From: Emcibacter sp. SYSU 3D8
GTDB taxonomy: Bacteria > Pseudomonadota > Alphaproteobacteria > SMXS01
Assembly: GCF_039655875.1 (NCBI RefSeq)
Contig: NZ_JBBYXK010000003.1
Location: forward strand, 124,001-188,000
Direction: 5' to 3'
Length of the DNA stretch: 64,000 nt
Shown: one piece after another, positions 7,836-17,551 of the stretch
Layout: each line of letters begins with the position of its first letter
Numbering within the stretch: the stretch's first letter is position 1
Position numbers and translations under genes: made by a program
The notes under the pieces: generated by a model
What the model was told of the DNA's origin: nothing
What the model saw: only the letters and a program-made list of their open reading frames with translations
The model's database searches: none

Positions 7836-8045
7836 TTAGCCGATCTGCAGATTGCAGGCCGACGACTTGCCGGTCTTGCGATCTTTTTCGAGCTCGAAGC
7901 CAAGCTTCTGGCCCTCATTGAGGCTGGTGTGCCCGGCGCGCTCGACGGCCGAGATGTGCACGAAAACGTCGGCGCTGCCGTCGTCGGGCTGGATGAATCC
8001 GAAGCCCTTCTGGGCGTTGAACCACTTCACGGTTCCATTGGTCAT
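7836..8045 (-). CDS. cold-shock domain protein (CspA family)
   Basis: 69 aa. The start at 8045 is fixed by AAGGAACG upstream and by the family N-terminus ([10 protein letters not shown]). RNP1 (KGFGFIQP) and RNP2 (DVFVHISAV) motifs are intact, giving the five-stranded beta-barrel that binds single-stranded nucleic acid and acts as an RNA chaperone. Monocistronic: own sigma70-like promoter about 140 nt upstream, long leader and strong terminator. A second copy lies at 49053-49262. Several csp paralogues per genome are normal in alphaproteobacteria; which are cold-induced cannot be told here. Confidence 0.95.
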
Positions 8046-8267: not shown

Positions 8268-8292
8268 GGAAAACATTGTATAGTCATTCGTT
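8268..8292 (+). promoter_or_regulatory. EcfG-like promoter candidate (one mismatch) for the sigma-region-2-like gene
   Basis: GGAAA (8268-8272), 16-nt spacer, CGTT (8289-8292). The consensus read by EcfG general-stress sigma factors is GGAAC-N16/17-CGTT, so only the last -35 base differs. Predicted start near 8300, about 70 nt before the ATG at 8369. The flanking 8046-8368 region is visibly AT-richer than its surroundings and contains no other gene. Confidence 0.4.
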
Positions 8293-8368
8293 CAGCCCCT
8301 CTAAACGACCTTGCGTGGCCATCCGCCCGTCGGCGCCATGCAATCCCGCGATACCATGAAAGACCGCT

Positions 8369-8632
8369 ATGCCCATGGAAGCGTCCCGCCGGCGCGAAGA
8401 GATATTCTTGATGGAACCCGAGTTGCATGCCTGGGCGTCGTCCTACACGGACGACCCGAATCTGGCCTATGCACTGGTGCATCACACCATCATGAAGTCC
8501 TGGAACGCGCTGAACCGGCCGGCCGCTGCAGTGACAACCCGGACGTGGCTTGCCGAGTTGATGTGGCACACGGTGAGCACCATGGATTGCTTCGATGACA
8601 CGCGCCAGTCCGACGGCAGGCTACTCAACTAG
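8369..8632 (+). CDS. small protein resembling an isolated ECF sigma region 2
   Basis: 87 aa from the ATG at 8369; starts at 8375 or 8411 are possible and the ribosome site is weak. Residues about 16-65 can be laid against region 2 of the EcfG-type sigma at 13826: LHAWASSYTDDPNLAYALV against LRAFGRSLSGTRDRADDLV, then TIMKSWNA against TLMKAWAA, and a TxTxxWLAELMW segment where sigma has the FRAWTFVIL core. There is no region 4. The -10-contacting acidic pair DD is replaced by YA. It could be a decoy, an anti-sigma partner or a relic; the intact frame and tight linkage to the next gene argue against a relic. It lies 9 bp before the 8642 gene. Confidence 0.5.
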   Translation: MPMEASRRREEIFLMEPELHAWASSYTDDPNLAYALVHHTIMKSWNALNRPAAAVTTRTWLAELMWHTVSTMDCFDDTRQSDGRLLN

Positions 8633-8641
8633 GATACGGAT

Positions 8642-8890
8642 ATGAACGCCTTCGATTACCAGGTACCAGCTGAATTATTCCTGCGCGGCATTGGCGCGGG
8701 TGGCAAACGCCTCGTCTACAAGCGCTTTGTCTCGGCCGCCGCGGCAGTTCAGTTCGCGGTTGAAGGAGCAAGTGGCTTTGCGACGGCCACGCTCGAGGTC
8801 GACGGCGACCGCTTTGAGAAAGCCGATATCCGCCGGCTCTATGATGCCGACGATTACCCGCTGTCGCGAAACGTTCCGCTCGCCGCCTAG
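8642..8890 (+). CDS. conserved small hypothetical protein
   Basis: 82 aa, ATG preceded by AGGATACGG, 9 bp after the sigma-region-2-like gene, so translationally linked. It begins DYQVPAELFLRG and ends in LEVDGDRFEKADIRRLYDADDYPLSR, which I associate with short conserved proteins of rhizobia and relatives. No transmembrane segment, signal peptide or cysteine motif. Function unknown. If the EcfG-like promoter at 8268 is real, this gene would be stress-induced together with its upstream partner. Confidence 0.65.
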   Translation: MNAFDYQVPAELFLRGIGAGGKRLVYKRFVSAAAAVQFAVEGASGFATATLEVDGDRFEKADIRRLYDADDYPLSRNVPLAA

Positions 8891-11893: not shown

Positions 11894-13741
11894 ATGAGAA
11901 GCATTTTCCCGCTGATCATCGGATTTATGATGCTTGTGCTCGTGGTCCTGGCGACCGGAGCGCTCGTGCGCGCGCACGAGGACATGAACGAGAAGGTCCG
12001 TGGCTCGCTGGAGATTGAAAACGGCCTCTGGCAGCTGCTGTCGGCGCTGCAGGATGCCGAAACGGGCCAGCGCGGCTATCTGCTTACGGGCGACCCGCAA
12101 TATCTTGACGCTTACAACAACGGCGCGCCGCATATCCCGGAGCGCCTTGAATATCTGCGCCGGGCGACGGCAGGAAACGCGGCGCACCAGCAGGCGCTCG
12201 ACGCGCTCGCAGGGGTCATGGAGCGGCGGCTGGTCATCATTGATAACGGCATCGCCCTTTATGCAGCCGGCAGGATCGATGAGGCCACATCAATTATCGG
12301 CAGCGACGAGGGCAAGCGGCTGATGGACCGGGCGCGGTCCATCGTCGCGGTCATGCGGTCCGGCGAGGACCAGTATCTGGACGCCTTGAAGGACAATACC
12401 CGCCGCGCCGTCCGACGCCTCGAGATGGCGATTGTCGCCGCGATTGTGGCGGTGATCCTGCTTGCGGCCTATGCGGTGTTTGACGCCTATCGGCGAAGCG
12501 CCGGTCTGGTGCGGACCCGCAACGAACTGCGGGTGGTCAACAGCCAGCTGGTGCAGGAGGCGAAAACCCGGGCGGCGGTCGAGGAACAGTTGCGCCAGTC
12601 GCAGAAGATGGAGGCCATGGGGCAACTCACCGGCGGTCTCGCGCACGACTTCAACAATATGCTGGCGGTGATCGTCGGTAACCTGAATCTGCTGTCGCGG
12701 CGGCTGGCCAGGGGCGAAACTGATGTGGAGCGCTATATCGCCCAGGCCATGGACGGCACCGAACGCGCCACGACACTGACGCACCGCCTGCTGGCATTCG
12801 CACGCAAGCAGCCGCTGTCGCCGGAGCCTATCGAGATCAACCGGCTGGTCGCCAGCATGTCGGACATGCTGAACCGGACATTGGGTGAGACCATCCGGGT
12901 CGAAACGGTCCTCGCTGGCGGGCTCTGGACCGTGAACGTGGATCCGGGGCAGCTGGAGAACGCCATTCTGAACCTCTCGGTGAATGCCCGTGACGCCATG
13001 TCCGGCGGTGGCAGGCTCACCATCGAAACCGCCAACGCCCATCTGGATGACATGTACGCCGCAAACCATGTAGGCGTGCCGGCGGGCCAGTATGTGCTGG
13101 TAGCGGTCTCGGACACCGGCACCGGTATGCCGGAAGAGGTGGTCGCCAAGGCATTCGAGCCGTTCTTCACCACCAAGGAGGCCGGCAAGGGCACGGGGCT
13201 GGGCCTTTCGCAGGTCCACGGCTTCGTCTACCAGTCGGGCGGTCACGTGAAGATCTATTCCGAACCGGGTTCCGGCTCGTCGGTGAAAATCTACCTGCCG
13301 CGGCACCATGGTGCCGCAACCACGGCGCAGCCCGATGCCGACATGGCGCCGCCGCCCCAGGGCGCGCCCCATCAGGTGATTCTGGTCGTGGAGGACGACG
13401 ACCGGGTTCGGCAGATGTCGGTCGATGCGCTGCGCGACCTGGGCTACACGGTCATCCATGCCAATGGTGCAGAAGCGGCGTTGAGGCTGCTCGACGAACA
13501 CCCGGAGGTCACGCTCCTGTTTACCGACATCGTCATGCCCGACGTCAATGGACGGGAACTGGCCGACCGGGCGCTGGAGCGTCGGCCGGGACTTAAGGTA
13601 TTGTTCACCACCGGCTACACCCGCAATGCGGTCGTACACAACGGCGTGGTCGATCCGGGCGTGCAACTGATCGGGAAACCGTTCACGCTGTATCAGCTGG
13701 CGCACAAGGTCCACGAGGCCATTCATGCCGGACCAGACTGA
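11894..13741 (+). CDS. hybrid sensor histidine kinase with CHASE3 and receiver domains
   Basis: 615 aa. Transmembrane helix 1 (about 5-27), an extracytoplasmic CHASE3 sensor with the signature ETGQRGYLLTGDPQYL, helix 2 (about 178-198), HisKA with phospho-acceptor His near 250 (LAHDFNN), HATPase with N, G1 (DTGTGMP) and G2 (GKGTGLGLSQV) boxes, and a C-terminal receiver with Asp near 544 (TDIVMPDVNG). A complete membrane sensor kinase. No cognate output regulator is fused; the stress sigma gene follows 84 bp downstream, but classical hybrid kinases of this type usually signal elsewhere, so a link with the GSR is only suggested by position. Confidence 0.93.
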   Translation: MRSIFPLIIGFMMLVLVVLATGALVRAHEDMNEKVRGSLEIENGLWQLLSALQDAETGQRGYLLTGDPQYLDAYNNGAPHIPERLEYLRRATAGNAAHQQALDALAGVMERRLVIIDNGIALYAAGRIDEATSIIGSDEGKRLMDRARSIVAVMRSGEDQYLDALKDNTRRAVRRLEMAIVAAIVAVILLAAYAVFDAYRRSAGLVRTRNELRVVNSQLVQEAKTRAAVEEQLRQSQKMEAMGQLTGGLAHDFNNMLAVIVGNLNLLSRRLARGETDVERYIAQAMDGTERATTLTHRLLAFARKQPLSPEPIEINRLVASMSDMLNRTLGETIRVETVLAGGLWTVNVDPGQLENAILNLSVNARDAMSGGGRLTIETANAHLDDMYAANHVGVPAGQYVLVAVSDTGTGMPEEVVAKAFEPFFTTKEAGKGTGLGLSQVHGFVYQSGGHVKIYSEPGSGSSVKIYLPRHHGAATTAQPDADMAPPPQGAPHQVILVVEDDDRVRQMSVDALRDLGYTVIHANGAEAALRLLDEHPEVTLLFTDIVMPDVNGRELADRALERRPGLKVLFTTGYTRNAVVHNGVVDPGVQLIGKPFTLYQLAHKVHEAIHAGPD

Positions 13742-13825
13742 CGCTGGGTCGGCTGGACATTGGACGCGCATGATGGTTCCTACGCGGCGGTACGAGTAGA
13801 GTCCGATAACAACGATGTCAGGCCC

Positions 13826-14353
13826 GTGAGCGAAGACACAGAGTCCGAAATCGGCGAATCGCTGTCTGACGCCGAGTTCGCCCGCGAGCTGGAAGCGGTG
13901 CTGCCGTCGCTTCGTGCGTTCGGCCGCAGCCTCAGCGGCACGCGTGACCGGGCCGATGATCTGGTGCAGGAAACGCTGATGAAGGCATGGGCTGCGCGCA
14001 CCCGTTTCCGGGCCGGCACTAGCTTTCGGGCCTGGACATTCGTGATCCTGCGCAATGCCTTCCTGTCCGACCGGCGGCGGCTTTCGACCACCATGGAGAC
14101 TGGCGGCGAGATTGCCGATTCGGCCATGTCGACGCCGGCCTCGCAGGATCAGGGGCTGATGCTCGACGACCTGCAGCGCGCGCTGATGCAACTTCCCGAC
14201 GCCTGGCGCGAGGCCGTGGTGCTGGTGGGGGCGGGCGGCATGTCCTATCAGGAAGCCTCGGAAATCTGCGGCTGTCCCATCGGCACGATCAGGAGCCGGG
14301 TCGCACGCGGCCGGGCCGAATTGGGCCGCCTCATGAATGGCCCCGCCGAGTAG
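13826..14353 (+). CDS. ecfG: EcfG-type (ECF15) RNA polymerase sigma factor
   Basis: 175 aa from the GTG at 13826; the frame opens earlier at a TTG (13760, 197 aa) and neither start has a strong ribosome site. Region 2 reads LPSLRAFGRSLSGTRDRADD with LVQETLMKAW, and region 4 reads LMQLPDAWREAVVLVGAGGMSYQEA with EICGCPIGTIRSRVARGRAEL, which is the EcfG pattern. It would direct the general stress response from GGAAC/GTT promoters and be held by NepR. Unlike the usual nepR-ecfG operon, nepR is 2 kb away on the other strand, so this could also be an EcfG paralogue. No EcfG-type promoter was seen before it. Confidence 0.85.
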   Translation: MSEDTESEIGESLSDAEFARELEAVLPSLRAFGRSLSGTRDRADDLVQETLMKAWAARTRFRAGTSFRAWTFVILRNAFLSDRRRLSTTMETGGEIADSAMSTPASQDQGLMLDDLQRALMQLPDAWREAVVLVGAGGMSYQEASEICGCPIGTIRSRVARGRAELGRLMNGPAE

Positions 14354-14405: not shown

Positions 14406-14512
14406 ACCGCCAACGAGTTCTTGGTCTAGGGTAGTTTGCTGGGCCTCTTGAGGCCCGCGCGGCTTTTGCGGGCGGTTCCGTCCGATTACGGTAATGAGTT
14501 GGGGATTGATTG

Positions 14513-14875
14513 ATGCGCGAAACCAGCATTCTCCTGGTCGAGGATGATCCGGCAATCTCGATGATCGTCGAGGAGATGATGATCGATCTGGGGATGTCGA
14601 ACGTTACCACGGCGGGGCGGCTTCCTGCCGCTGTCGAGGCGGCGAGCAGCGGCGGTTTCGATTGCGCCATCGTCGATCTCAAGCTGCATGGCCAGGATAC
14701 CTTCGAAGTGGCGCGCATCCTCACCAAGCGCAACATTCCGTTCGCGTTCTTTACCGGCTATTCGGCCGACACCCTTCGCGAATACGCCGAACAGCCCGTG
14801 CTTCCCAAGCCGTTCGCCGAATCGGACCTGAAAGCCATCCTTGATCACCTCCTGAAGGTACCGGGCGGCGCCTGA
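14513..14875 (+). CDS. single-domain response regulator, FAT GUY type
   Basis: 120 aa, ATG preceded by GGGGA. A lone receiver: acidic pair in VEDDP, phospho-acceptor Asp near residue 54 (AIVDLKLHG), Lys near 98 (LPKPF). The segment PFAFFTGYSAD is the FAT GUY variation of the beta4-alpha4 region. Family members such as SdrG of Sphingomonas act with HWE/HisKA_2 kinases in the general stress phosphorelay. The position between the EcfG-type sigma and the HWE kinase fits that role. It has its own EcfG-type promoter candidate. Confidence 0.9.
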   Translation: MRETSILLVEDDPAISMIVEEMMIDLGMSNVTTAGRLPAAVEAASSGGFDCAIVDLKLHGQDTFEVARILTKRNIPFAFFTGYSADTLREYAEQPVLPKPFAESDLKAILDHLLKVPGGA

Positions 14876-15049: not shown

Positions 15050-16492
15050 ATGAACGCCGCCTTTTTGGAGGCACAGAATGGGCACGTGATGAACCAGGCC
15101 AACGGGGGAGATTTGCTTATTCTTGCAGACGCGCTGCGACTGCTGCCGACGCCTGCCTGCATCCTGGATGCTGCAGGCCGGATTGTGGGCTGCAATGCCA
15201 AGGCAACGGGCGTGTGGGGCCGCGAGCCCGGGCCGGAAGATACGTGGGCCAGCATGGCCGGCAACGACGGCTCCGGGCGGCAGTTCCAGGCCCTCCTGGA
15301 GTCTGGCCAGGCCCAGACAAATGCGGCGCTGACCCTGTGCCCCTCGCCCGAAACACGCCTGGACGTGCTGGCCAACGCCGAGCCGGTGTGGGACGAAGGC
15401 GAATATGTCGGCACGGTTGTGACCTTCCAGTCCCGTCCTGAATCGTCCGGCACGACCACCCGTTTCTGGGACATGCTCGACGTCTTGCCGGCGGCAATCT
15501 GCGTCGCCGATCCCGAGGGACGCCTTACCTATTTCAACCAGGCGGCGGCCGACCTCTGGGGCGCCGTACCGGAAGAGGGCAGCAGCCTCTGGAGCGCTCC
15601 CTGGAGAGTCTACGGCAGCGACGGATCGGTGCTGCCCCACGATGAAACGCCCATGGCCATTGCGATCCGCGAGCGTCGGCCGGTACGGGGGGTTGAGTTG
15701 ACCCTGGAGCGTCCGGACGGTTCCCGGGTCGCGATCCTGCCCCATCCGACGCCGCTTTATGACGCAACCGGCCGGTTCATCGGCGCGGTGAACATGATGG
15801 CCGATATTACCCATCAGAAAGTGGCCGAGGATCGCCACATCCTGTTTGCGCGCGAGCTCAATCACCGGGTGAAAAATGCGCTGGCGACCGTCTATGCCAT
15901 TGCCATGCAAACCCTGCGCTATACGGATTCGCTGGAATCGTTCCGCGAGTCGTTCAGCAGCCGTCTGCTCGCGCTGAGCCGCGCGCATGATCTGCTGGTA
16001 CGGTGCCAGTGGCAGGAGACGCCGCTCAAGATCATCCTCGCCGAAGCGCTCTCGGCCTTCGGCTCATCGCGGCTCGATGTGGAGGGTGACGACGCCGATT
16101 TCGGGCCGCGTGCCACGCTGACGCTGGCGATGACGTTCCATGAACTGGTCACCAATGCAGCCCGCTTCGGCGCCCTGGCTGAAGGCGAGGGTTTCGTCGA
16201 AATACGCTGGCGGGTTGTCCGCGACGAGGACGGCGAGCGCATGGTCGCGCTGACCTGGCGCGAGACCGGCGGCCCCAGGGTCGAGGCGCCCGTCGAATCC
16301 GGCTTTGGTTCCCGCCTGATCAATCACAATTTGATGGCGCTTGGCGGCTCGATCGAGATGGATTATGCGGCCGAGGGGCTACGCTGCGAGATGAAATTTC
16401 CGGTAATCAACGAGGCGCCGGCTACTTCTTCGGCGGCTCGTCCTTCAGGCGAGACAGCAGGTCCAGCATCTCCTGGGGAACTGGTTCGTTGA
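15050..16492 (+). CDS. HWE-family sensor histidine kinase with PAS domains
   Basis: 480 aa from the ATG at 15050 (AGGA five bases upstream). No transmembrane segment. Two PAS-like regions: one with LLPTPACILDAAGRIVGCN, and one from about residue 145 (DVLPAAICVADPEGRLTYFN). The phospho-acceptor is in NHRVKN (His near 271). The N-box His (FHELVTNAARFGA, near 364) and Trp-x-Glu (WRE, near 403) define the HWE subfamily; GFGSRLI is the G box. Such kinases phosphorylate PhyR or FAT GUY regulators. The last 23 codons overlap nepR on the opposite strand and read like unconstrained tail. Confidence 0.93.
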   Translation: MNAAFLEAQNGHVMNQANGGDLLILADALRLLPTPACILDAAGRIVGCNAKATGVWGREPGPEDTWASMAGNDGSGRQFQALLESGQAQTNAALTLCPSPETRLDVLANAEPVWDEGEYVGTVVTFQSRPESSGTTTRFWDMLDVLPAAICVADPEGRLTYFNQAAADLWGAVPEEGSSLWSAPWRVYGSDGSVLPHDETPMAIAIRERRPVRGVELTLERPDGSRVAILPHPTPLYDATGRFIGAVNMMADITHQKVAEDRHILFARELNHRVKNALATVYAIAMQTLRYTDSLESFRESFSSRLLALSRAHDLLVRCQWQETPLKIILAEALSAFGSSRLDVEGDDADFGPRATLTLAMTFHELVTNAARFGALAEGEGFVEIRWRVVRDEDGERMVALTWRETGGPRVEAPVESGFGSRLINHNLMALGGSIEMDYAAEGLRCEMKFPVINEAPATSSAARPSGETAGPASPGELVR

Positions 16493-16586
16493 CAACTTCG
16501 TCATACAATCGCCGGAGATTGTCGCCCAAGCGCTTGCGTTGCTCGGGCTTCTTGATCCCGGAGTCTTTGCCTTGCGTCACGTTCAC
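16422..16586 (-). CDS. nepR: NepR anti-sigma factor
   Basis: 54 aa from the GTG at 16586; a second GTG at 16580 with AGGGCAGG upstream may be the true start. The core LGDNLRRLYDEVVNEPVPQE with MLDLLSRL is the diagnostic NepR motif: helix 1 and helix 2 that clamp EcfG regions 2 and 4 or the sigma-like domain of PhyR-P. The gene is divergent from phyR, as usual, but not followed by ecfG. Its 3' end overlaps the HWE kinase gene tail-to-tail by 71 bp (16422-16492). Two promoter candidates lie upstream, one sigma70-like and one EcfG-type. Confidence 0.92.
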   Translation of the reverse strand: MNVTQGKDSGIKKPEQRKRLGDNLRRLYDEVVNEPVPQEMLDLLSRLKDEPPKK

Positions 16587-16657: not shown

Positions 16658-16724
16658 TGACTGAACGCTTGCATCCCCACGACTCAAGGTTTTCACTCGA
16701 TGTGAAGCCTCGTGTCGCTACTAC

Positions 16725-16749
16725 AACTCGAAAACACACGGAGAGTTCC
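16725..16749 (-). promoter_or_regulatory. EcfG-type promoter candidate for nepR, overlapping the phyR ribosome site
   Basis: On the minus strand GGAAC (16749-16745), a 16-nt spacer and AGTT (16728-16725), identical in form to the candidate at 14381. The -35 element is the complement of the bases just before the phyR ATG, between its Shine-Dalgarno and start codon. It would create stress-dependent negative feedback through NepR. Confidence 0.45.
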
Positions 16750-16750
16750 C

Positions 16751-17551
16751 ATGTCGCTCGCAGCTGACCTCGCTCCTCATCTCTCCCATCTTCGCCGCTA
16801 TGCGCGCGCGCTGACCGGAAGCCAGGTCCATGGCGACGCCTATGTACGGGCCTGCCTCGAGACCATTGTCGAGGCGCCGGACGAATTTCCGCGCGATGTG
16901 GGCGCCAAGGTGGGCCTCTACAAGGTGTTCTATGCCATCTGGATGACAGCCCATGTGGACGAGCCGGCCGACCTCGACGATTCGATGGCCAAGCCCGAGC
17001 GGCGGTTGCAGCGGCGGCTTGAAGAACTGACGCCGGTCAGCCGGCAGGCGCTGCTGCTCACGGCCATGGAGGGCTTCGGCGAGAACGAGACCGCCGAGAT
17101 CATCGGCATCACGCCTGATGAAGTGGGCGAACTGGTCGAGATGGCGCTGGCAGATATCCAGCGCCAGGAGCGCACCAAGGTGCTGATCATCGAGGACGAG
17201 CCGGCCATCTCAATGGATCTGGCCTCGCTGGTCACCGATCTGGGGCACCAGGTCGTCGCCATTTCCATGACCCGCAACCAGGCGGTGAAGGCCGCGCGAG
17301 ATCACAAGCCGGGCCTGGTGCTGGCCGATATCCAGCTTGCCGACGGCAGCTCGGGCCTTGATGCCGTCAAGGAAATCCTGGGCCAGATGGAAGTGCCGGT
17401 GATCTTCATCACCGCGTTCCCCGAGCGGCTGCTGACCGGCGAGCGCCCGGAGCCGACTTTCCTGATCACCAAGCCGTTCGACCATCGCACGGTCCAGGCC
17501 ACGATCAGCCAGGCGCTGTTCTTCAACACGTCGGAGGCGCTGGTCGCCTAA
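16751..17551 (+). CDS. phyR: general stress response regulator PhyR
   Basis: 266 aa. The start at 16751 is set by GGAG upstream and by the family N-terminus (MSLAADLAPHLSHLRRYARAL); a GTG at 16712 is in frame but unlikely. Residues 1-130 form the sigma-like output domain (helix-rich, with an ALLLTAMEGFGENETAEIIG region-4-like part). Residues about 140-262 form the receiver with Asp near 192 (LADIQLADGSSGLD) and Lys in TKPFDHR. When phosphorylated it binds NepR as a sigma mimic and releases EcfG. No EcfG-type promoter was found directly before it. It converges with the 17562 gene, 10 bp away. Confidence 0.96.
   Translation: MSLAADLAPHLSHLRRYARALTGSQVHGDAYVRACLETIVEAPDEFPRDVGAKVGLYKVFYAIWMTAHVDEPADLDDSMAKPERRLQRRLEELTPVSRQALLLTAMEGFGENETAEIIGITPDEVGELVEMALADIQRQERTKVLIIEDEPAISMDLASLVTDLGHQVVAISMTRNQAVKAARDHKPGLVLADIQLADGSSGLDAVKEILGQMEVPVIFITAFPERLLTGERPEPTFLITKPFDHRTVQATISQALFFNTSEALVA

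Follow-up and report, generated by a model that had tools for sequence, protein, structure and literature searches.

The locus described here raises the question of what a protein can do that appears to consist of region 2 of a sigma factor and nothing else. The window (the whole stretch of 64,000 nucleotides that was analysed) contains, as an open-reading-frame check showed, a frame of 87 aa, here termed gene A. A previous sequence-only reading had compared its product by eye with region 2 of an EcfG-type sigma factor encoded about 5 kb away, and had pointed to a conserved 82-aa protein (gene B) following after 9 bp. Both statements hold, with ecfG lying 5.1 kb from gene A and the gene B frame being present behind a 9-bp gap. 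The genes concerned are:

8369–8632, plus strand: gene A, an 87-aa stand-alone, degenerate EcfG-type sigma region 2 with orthologues in all seven genomes of the genus
8642–8890, plus strand: gene B, its 82-aa partner with a predicted beta-beta-alpha-beta-beta-alpha fold, directly 3′ of gene A in all seven genomes
13760–14353, plus strand: EcfG-type (ECF15) sigma factor, assigned by Pfam and NCBIfam; of the paralogues tested, the one nearest to gene A

Likeness to sigma region 2 and ancestry of gene A

The resemblance of the 87-aa product to sigma region 2 is real, as Pfam, NCBIfam and PDB profile matches agree on it. Sigma70_r2 (PF04542) is the only Pfam family matched by the window protein, with 16.3 bits (E 0.0086), which is below the curated gathering cut-off of 24 bits. 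All seven orthologues match this family and no other (best E 0.00033), and the top score of a gene A copy in the Sigma70_r2 search of the seven genomes was 20.2. NCBIfam ranks an ECF sigma factor model first (E 6.8e-6), and the four top NCBIfam models of gene A are all within the top five of the EcfG of the window. When a profile of the seven sequences was compared with 177,635 distinct PDB sequences, the first match was 5UXX (E 5.5e-4), a sigma factor of Bartonella quintana solved in complex with NepR.

The fold predicted by AlphaFold2 from the seven-row alignment (mean pLDDT 80.3, pTM 0.67) is that of a sigma-2 domain, and sigma-2 structures headed the lists of both Foldseek and VIA-align for this model. 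By Foldseek, 5UXX ranked first, with no match reaching E 0.001. VIA-align superimposed the model on 1H3L with Z 12.2 and an rmsd of 1.3 over 74 residues, a Z value that is not decisive on its own as small helical bundles score high generally, the sequence evidence being independent of it. The sigma-like domain of PhyR showed a related fold as well, the superpositions on 3T0Y (Z 7.6, rmsd 3.5) and 9CB6 (Z 9.3, rmsd 3.7) comprising 77 residues each. The domain stands alone, as had been claimed, since Pfam matched no region 4 in the 87 aa; a receiver domain or a sigma-4-like part was likewise without a Pfam match. Within the seven genomes, the other Sigma70_r2 matches at E ≤ 0.05 lie in open frames of at least 152 aa and gene A is the sole match in a short frame, with four of its seven copies reaching this threshold; as the other three fall short of it, further diverged lone domains could escape the search.

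According to profile–profile comparisons, EcfG is the closest paralogue of gene A among the groups tested. The alignment of the two, with an hhalign probability of 89.6, runs over 53 columns without gaps and shows 30% identity. Among the other paralogues of the order, two groups resembling EcfG reached 73.5% and 56%, whereas of the other ECF groups one was found at 17% and three below 1%. These comparisons used 29 of the 30 ECF loci (L072 left out) and three of the four PhyR loci (L092 left out); two further loci of the PhyR search, L094 and L095, were not included. With PhyR of the same genus no profile match was obtained (probability 0.07%), although the same method linked EcfG and PhyR at 80% and 91% over about 130 columns; as this control spans regions 2 and 4 together, a link through region 2 only could escape it. 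Gene A thus looks EcfG-derived rather than like a cut-down PhyR, an origin which is disfavoured, and to judge from its sequence gene A most likely descended from an EcfG-type sigma factor. The left-out locus L072 (G004:C5:26816-27298) is an EcfG-like paralogue with one in-frame TAG, also located within its region-2 match, which may reflect either the decay of an EcfG copy or an error in sequencing.

Conservation and the residues lost and kept

A search of 41 genomes detected gene A in the genome of the window and in six other genomes of the genus, so that the frame is not missing in close relatives. Of the two outcomes that the sequence-only reading had named as refuting its claim, lack of a sigma-2 fold and absence from close relatives, neither was thus observed. 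Outside the genus, the weak matches in G008 and G021 are inside long frames (202 and 258 aa). Compared by order, ten genomes of one family gave gene A in all seven genus members and in none of the three others. In a class sample of 385 genomes, with scoring limited to 13 candidates per genome, gene A was among the matches listed for four genomes, all belonging to the same genus. No stand-alone relative from outside the genus was among the matches listed for this sample; those from outside sit in frames of 170–337 aa. Regarding a plasmid or phage origin, no plasmid match was obtained for the DNA of the region or the gene A protein, and gene A has no PHROG family match.

The orthologues share 54–92% identity with the window protein, 41 of 87 positions being invariant across the seven genomes, and their open frames are 89–133 aa long. 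No internal stop codon was found in any of the seven matches. Pairwise dN/dS values (Nei-Gojobori) range from 0.06 to 0.14 among G000, G001, G002, G004 and G005, from 0.22 to 0.33 with G006 and from 0.32 to 0.45 with G003. Gene A is therefore under purifying selection, as judged from the five close genomes. These low values, the uninterrupted frames and the invariant positions argue against gene A being a functionless, decaying remnant of an ecfG duplicate. Although the missing region 4 and the lost sigma motifs would fit such a remnant, this explanation is strongly disfavoured and barely credible.

In sigma factors, helix 2.2 (region 2.2) docks on the beta′ clamp of RNA polymerase. Two parts of gene A are of particular relevance in this context:

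8456–8503, plus strand: helix 2.2 of gene A, residues 30–45, PNLAYALVHHTIMKSW, with its acidic contacts replaced
8504–8536, plus strand: loop matching the promoter-reading loop L3, residues 46–56, drifting in gene A

The seven gene A proteins were compared with 26 full-length ECF proteins from the class search. The DD..QE of ECF sigma factors is replaced by YA..HH (Y34, A35, H38, H39) in all seven, which bears out the earlier remark that the DD pair has been lost (now Y34 A35). Among the full-length proteins, position 34 is D or E in 25 and A in one, position 35 is D in all 26, position 38 is Q in 22 and H in four, and position 39 is D or E in all 26. R66, present in 20 of them (three gaps), is W in every gene A protein, and N67, present in 17 (eight gaps), is H in six and kept in G003 only. 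Residues L19, A23, A33, L36, V37 and W60, which are common to ECF sigma factors, are kept. Within the same six genomes, helix 2.2 has 12 of 16 invariant columns in gene A and 13 of 16 in EcfG; the loop L3, by contrast, has one of 11 in gene A and nine of 11 in EcfG. In ECF sigma factors this loop is described as reading a base of the −10 element (available text of PMC8103513).

Gene A has thus kept helix 2.2, but with its docking residues exchanged, and has preserved neither R66 nor the sequence of the promoter-reading loop; it no longer looks like a working sigma factor. A docking face that is conserved in altered form, next to a promoter loop free to vary, agrees with a binding protein which no longer reads DNA. 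The same residues bear on an earlier suggestion, namely that gene A might be a polymerase competitor or a brake on EcfG, occupying the RNA polymerase clamp in place of sigma factors without any start of transcription. The conservation of helix 2.2 and the retained ECF-shared residues would suit a protein of this kind. However, as the acidic residues at the docking positions are missing in all seven orthologues, a role as competitor or brake looks improbable.

Gene B, the stress genes and the upstream region

Gene B adjoins gene A in all seven genomes of the genus, so the two-gene unit is conserved as proposed. The spacing is 7–10 bp in six of them, the start of gene B being uncertain in G003. 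AlphaFold2 predicted the order beta-beta-alpha-beta-beta-alpha for gene B with a mean pLDDT of 90.3 (21 sequences). No Pfam family matches the window protein, and within the set of 21 members no Pfam match is common to more than two. A weak likeness to ERH (best Z 6.6, rmsd 3.8, 72 residues; no Foldseek match at E ≤ 0.001) was taken as not meaningful. A different order of the same class has homologues of gene B in 16 of 121 genomes. Two of these 16 genomes have more than one match (the loci of the family include L059 and L096-L113), and the family, which is unnamed, shows a motif of approximately FDY..PAELF...YRRF.TAAEAI.FA.E. None of the 19 loci of the other order has a gene A-like frame beside the gene B homologue (flanks of about 1.5 kb), which suggests that gene B does not need gene A. 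GGAAC-N16,17-NGTT was not found within 450 bases upstream of the homologues at these 19 loci.

The predicted fold of gene B contains no helix-turn-helix, and gene B was accordingly rejected as region 4 of a split sigma factor. A split sigma factor of the RsoA/SigO kind, to which gene A would give region 2 and a separate protein region 4, would match a sigma-2-only make-up like that described for RsoA (PMC8103513) and T4 gp55 (PMC2988020), each as given in the accessible text. Besides the fold of gene B, the replaced acidic residues of helix 2.2 and R66 as well as the drifting loop L3 speak against it. Furthermore, no stand-alone region-4 protein recurs across the seven genomes in a PF08281 search, which a diverged or PF04545-only protein could escape. 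Taken together, a split sigma factor appears very improbable.

A different possibility is that the partner of gene A lies outside the sigma/anti-sigma network, gene A having been co-opted to work with the product of gene B or with another protein. The invariant face formed by Y34, A35, H38 and H39 would then be a new interface. Genes A and B adjoin in each genome while the distances to nepR and ecfG vary (see below), the replacements in helix 2.2 are specific and invariant, and the compact predicted fold of gene B could act as a binding domain. The relatives of gene B in the other order, on the other hand, speak against co-option by gene B, since no gene A-like frame was found in the flanks of the 19 loci. 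Overall, such a co-option is a genuine, albeit doubtful, possibility.

The surroundings of the two-gene unit in the window include the following genes:

7836–8045, minus strand: divergently oriented gene for a CspA-like cold-shock protein, preceding gene A in all seven genomes (window, L013-L017, L007)
16440–16538, minus strand: NepR core match (PF18557, 50 bits, E 1.4e-12), candidate partner of gene A
16712–17551, plus strand: PhyR with sigma-like domain and receiver (PhyR_sigma2 82.9 bits; NF006623 351 bits)

Downstream of the unit, a cytochrome P450 gene is found in six of the seven genomes (window, L013-L017), the locus of G003 being too short. The link to the general stress response genes is less constant. 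Gene A and ecfG are separated by about 2.6 kb in G002, 5.8 kb in G004 and about 71 kb in G003, and are on different contigs in G001 and G006. A close EcfG orthologue was found in six of the seven genomes (none in G005). NepR matched strongly in five (G000, G001, G003, G004, G006) and weakly in G002, and G005 gave no match; in G003, nepR is about 64 kb away from gene A. PhyR was found in four genomes, and not in G002, G004 and G005. All three, NepR, PhyR and an EcfG orthologue, occur together in G000, G001, G003 and G006. Contig ends and the completeness of G005 (78%) may explain the missing genes. In G006 (L017), the P450 gene is followed, as the nearest reference gene detected, by the thioredoxin-reductase-like gene that comes after phyR in the window. 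The stress block is thus missing beside gene A there, and ecfG, nepR and phyR of this genome exist on other contigs. The sister genomes G007-G009, which are without gene A, exhibited no NepR, no PhyR and weak or no ECF matches, the absence side of this co-occurrence resting on these three genomes.

Several further observations were made on the stress genes. Second, weaker NepR-like matches were detected at G003:C1:236235-236336 (L052, 31.6 bits) and G002:C34:31304-31381 (L051, 25.7 bits), both 2–3 kb from long sigma frames (313 and 316 aa; perhaps RpoH), and weak NepR-like matches (24–26 bits) also occur in G001 and G004. In the window, a single-domain response regulator (14510-14875), with an EcfG-type site upstream (14381, plus strand), lies between ecfG and an HWE kinase gene; it is reminiscent of the SdrG/MrrA hubs. 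The usual location of nepR is described as directly upstream of ecfG (available text of PMC8103513). In the window this place is taken by a CHASE3 histidine kinase with a receiver (11894-13741), and nepR is instead apart from ecfG and divergent from phyR.

Two elements upstream of gene A have to be considered with respect to its transcription:

8268–8292, plus strand: GGAAA-N16-CGTT, the claimed EcfG-like site; unsupported, near chance and absent in six congeners
8272–8281, plus strand: AACATTGTAT element, candidate −10 region common to close congeners

The EcfG-type consensus is given as GGAAC-N16-CGTT for Sphingopyxis (PMC7083833) and as GAAC-N16,17-C/GGTT for M. extorquens (PMC4814048) in the accessible parts of these papers. 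The sequence-only reading had placed an EcfG-like promoter in front of gene A, and the site GGAAA-N16-CGTT, one base off GGAAC-N16-CGTT, is indeed present. However, with 38 sites at one mismatch or less in the 64-kb window, compared to a mean of 22.9 in ten first-order Markov sequences, its occurrence is near chance. Moreover, it was not found within 350 bases upstream of gene A in six congeners, including the close G001, G002, G004 and G005. Further matches of a relaxed pattern, at −164 in L001 and, close to where cspA begins, at about −310 in L001-L005, are distinct from the claimed site. GGAAC-N16-NGTT is located upstream of the response regulator (14381, plus strand), the HWE kinase (14908, plus strand) and nepR (16749, minus strand), and these three sites recur in G001 and G004. 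In G003 and G006, which are more distant, they were not seen with the same pattern, and the contig of G002 ends before them. As the site in front of gene A has a near-chance frequency and does not recur, while the stress-locus sites recur in two close congeners, the claim of an EcfG-type promoter for gene A is unsupported and was rejected. The AACATTGTAT element has identical letters in G000, G001, G002 and G005, reads AACATTGCTT in G004 and is absent upstream of gene A in G003 and G006.

A possible anti-sigma factor ligand and its relation to known systems

The explanation proposed here is that gene A encodes a sigma-2 mimic which binds an anti-sigma factor, with NepR as the prime candidate. 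Judged by sequence and predicted structure, this explanation is put forward tentatively and falls somewhat short of an even chance. According to it, region 2 of an EcfG-type sigma factor would, with the loss of region 4, have ceased to be capable of sigma factor function and would have been retained as a small binding protein. Gene A would neither dock productively on RNA polymerase nor read a promoter, and would offer the face of helix 2.2 to a partner whose usual target is a sigma-2 domain. By occupying the sigma-2-binding half of NepR, it could weaken the inhibition of EcfG without phosphorylation. Gene B, as constant neighbour, would be expected to help or regulate gene A. NepR is the prime candidate as the nearest solved sequence relative of gene A is a NepR-bound sigma factor, as PhyR shows a partly similar loss in helix 2.2 and as the genus possesses NepR, PhyR and EcfG. 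A phosphorylation-independent interaction with NepR, which the sequence-only reading had suggested as one role of gene A, is described for RT-PhyR′ (accessible text of PMC12148442). As NepR contacts both sigma-2 and sigma-4 according to the available text of PMC4598750, a sigma-2-only ligand may be a weak one.

Several observations speak against a mimic that binds an anti-sigma factor. The link of gene A to the stress locus is loose, its distance to nepR and ecfG being variable. PhyR was not found in three of the genomes with gene A, and one of these, G005, also lacks NepR and a close EcfG among the matches found. The promoter is not of the EcfG type. Among the matches listed, gene A is restricted to one genus, whereas the available text of PMC8103513 presents the NepR-PhyR-EcfG switch as a general feature of the class. 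Finally, gene A is accompanied more constantly by gene B than by nepR, yet gene B has relatives elsewhere without gene A. A more specific proposal is rather unlikely in its complete form. In it, an EcfG-derived half-sigma decoy would bind, without phosphorylation, the half of NepR that recognises sigma-2, would set a basal threshold of the stress response beside PhyR and would be regulated by gene B.

The previous statement that no system of this form is described was too strong, as RsoA, T4 gp55 and Mext_0132 are sigma-2-only precedents, although to our knowledge none of the three is known as non-transcribing. The following comparisons refer to the accessible parts of the cited papers. RsoA of Bacillus subtilis carries a sigma-2 domain alone (PMC8103513) and transcribes together with SigO, which provides region 4, whereas no such partner was found for gene A. 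T4 gp55, a small member of the sigma family, is related to domain 2 of sigma factors (PMC2988020). Together with gp33 and gp45 it recognises late promoters, and its docking site is the beta′ coiled coil; gene A, in contrast, is devoid of the docking acids. Mext_0132 of M. extorquens is a sigma-2-only EcfG paralogue (PMC4814048) and hence, compared by description only, resembles gene A in being EcfG-derived, sigma-2-only and alphaproteobacterial. It is, however, close to EcfG1 (score 134, E 6e-39; PMC4814048) and far less diverged than gene A. In the open-access literature, as covered by titles and the beginnings of abstracts and with subscription papers mostly outside this set, no conserved sigma-2-only protein without the transcription residues was found.

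EcfG (ECF15), the alphaproteobacterial general stress sigma factor, shares its region 2 with gene A over the 53 columns (30% identity) mentioned above. With 197 aa it comprises a region 4, which is absent from the 87 aa of gene A, and it keeps DD..QE, R66 and a conserved loop L3, all of which are replaced or drifting in gene A. PhyR is a known non-transcribing sigma mimic and acts as an anti-sigma antagonist by binding NepR. Like gene A, which is probably non-transcribing as well, it is sigma-like and has part of the acidic motif of helix 2.2 replaced. DAYVRA in PhyR compared to DDLVQE in EcfG means that positions 35, 38 and 39 are replaced and the first D is kept (three PhyR sequences, by eye). 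If the proposed binding of an anti-sigma factor is true, a selected sigma-2-only protein without the transcription residues would imply that a binding domain can be all that remains of a sigma factor, and with gene A it could be tested in a simple way which half of the interface with NepR suffices for partner switching. In the stress response of Alphaproteobacteria, mimicry of sigma factors is known for PhyR, which combines sigma-2 and sigma-4 parts with a receiver domain and is switched by phosphorylation, whereas gene A consists of sigma-2 only.
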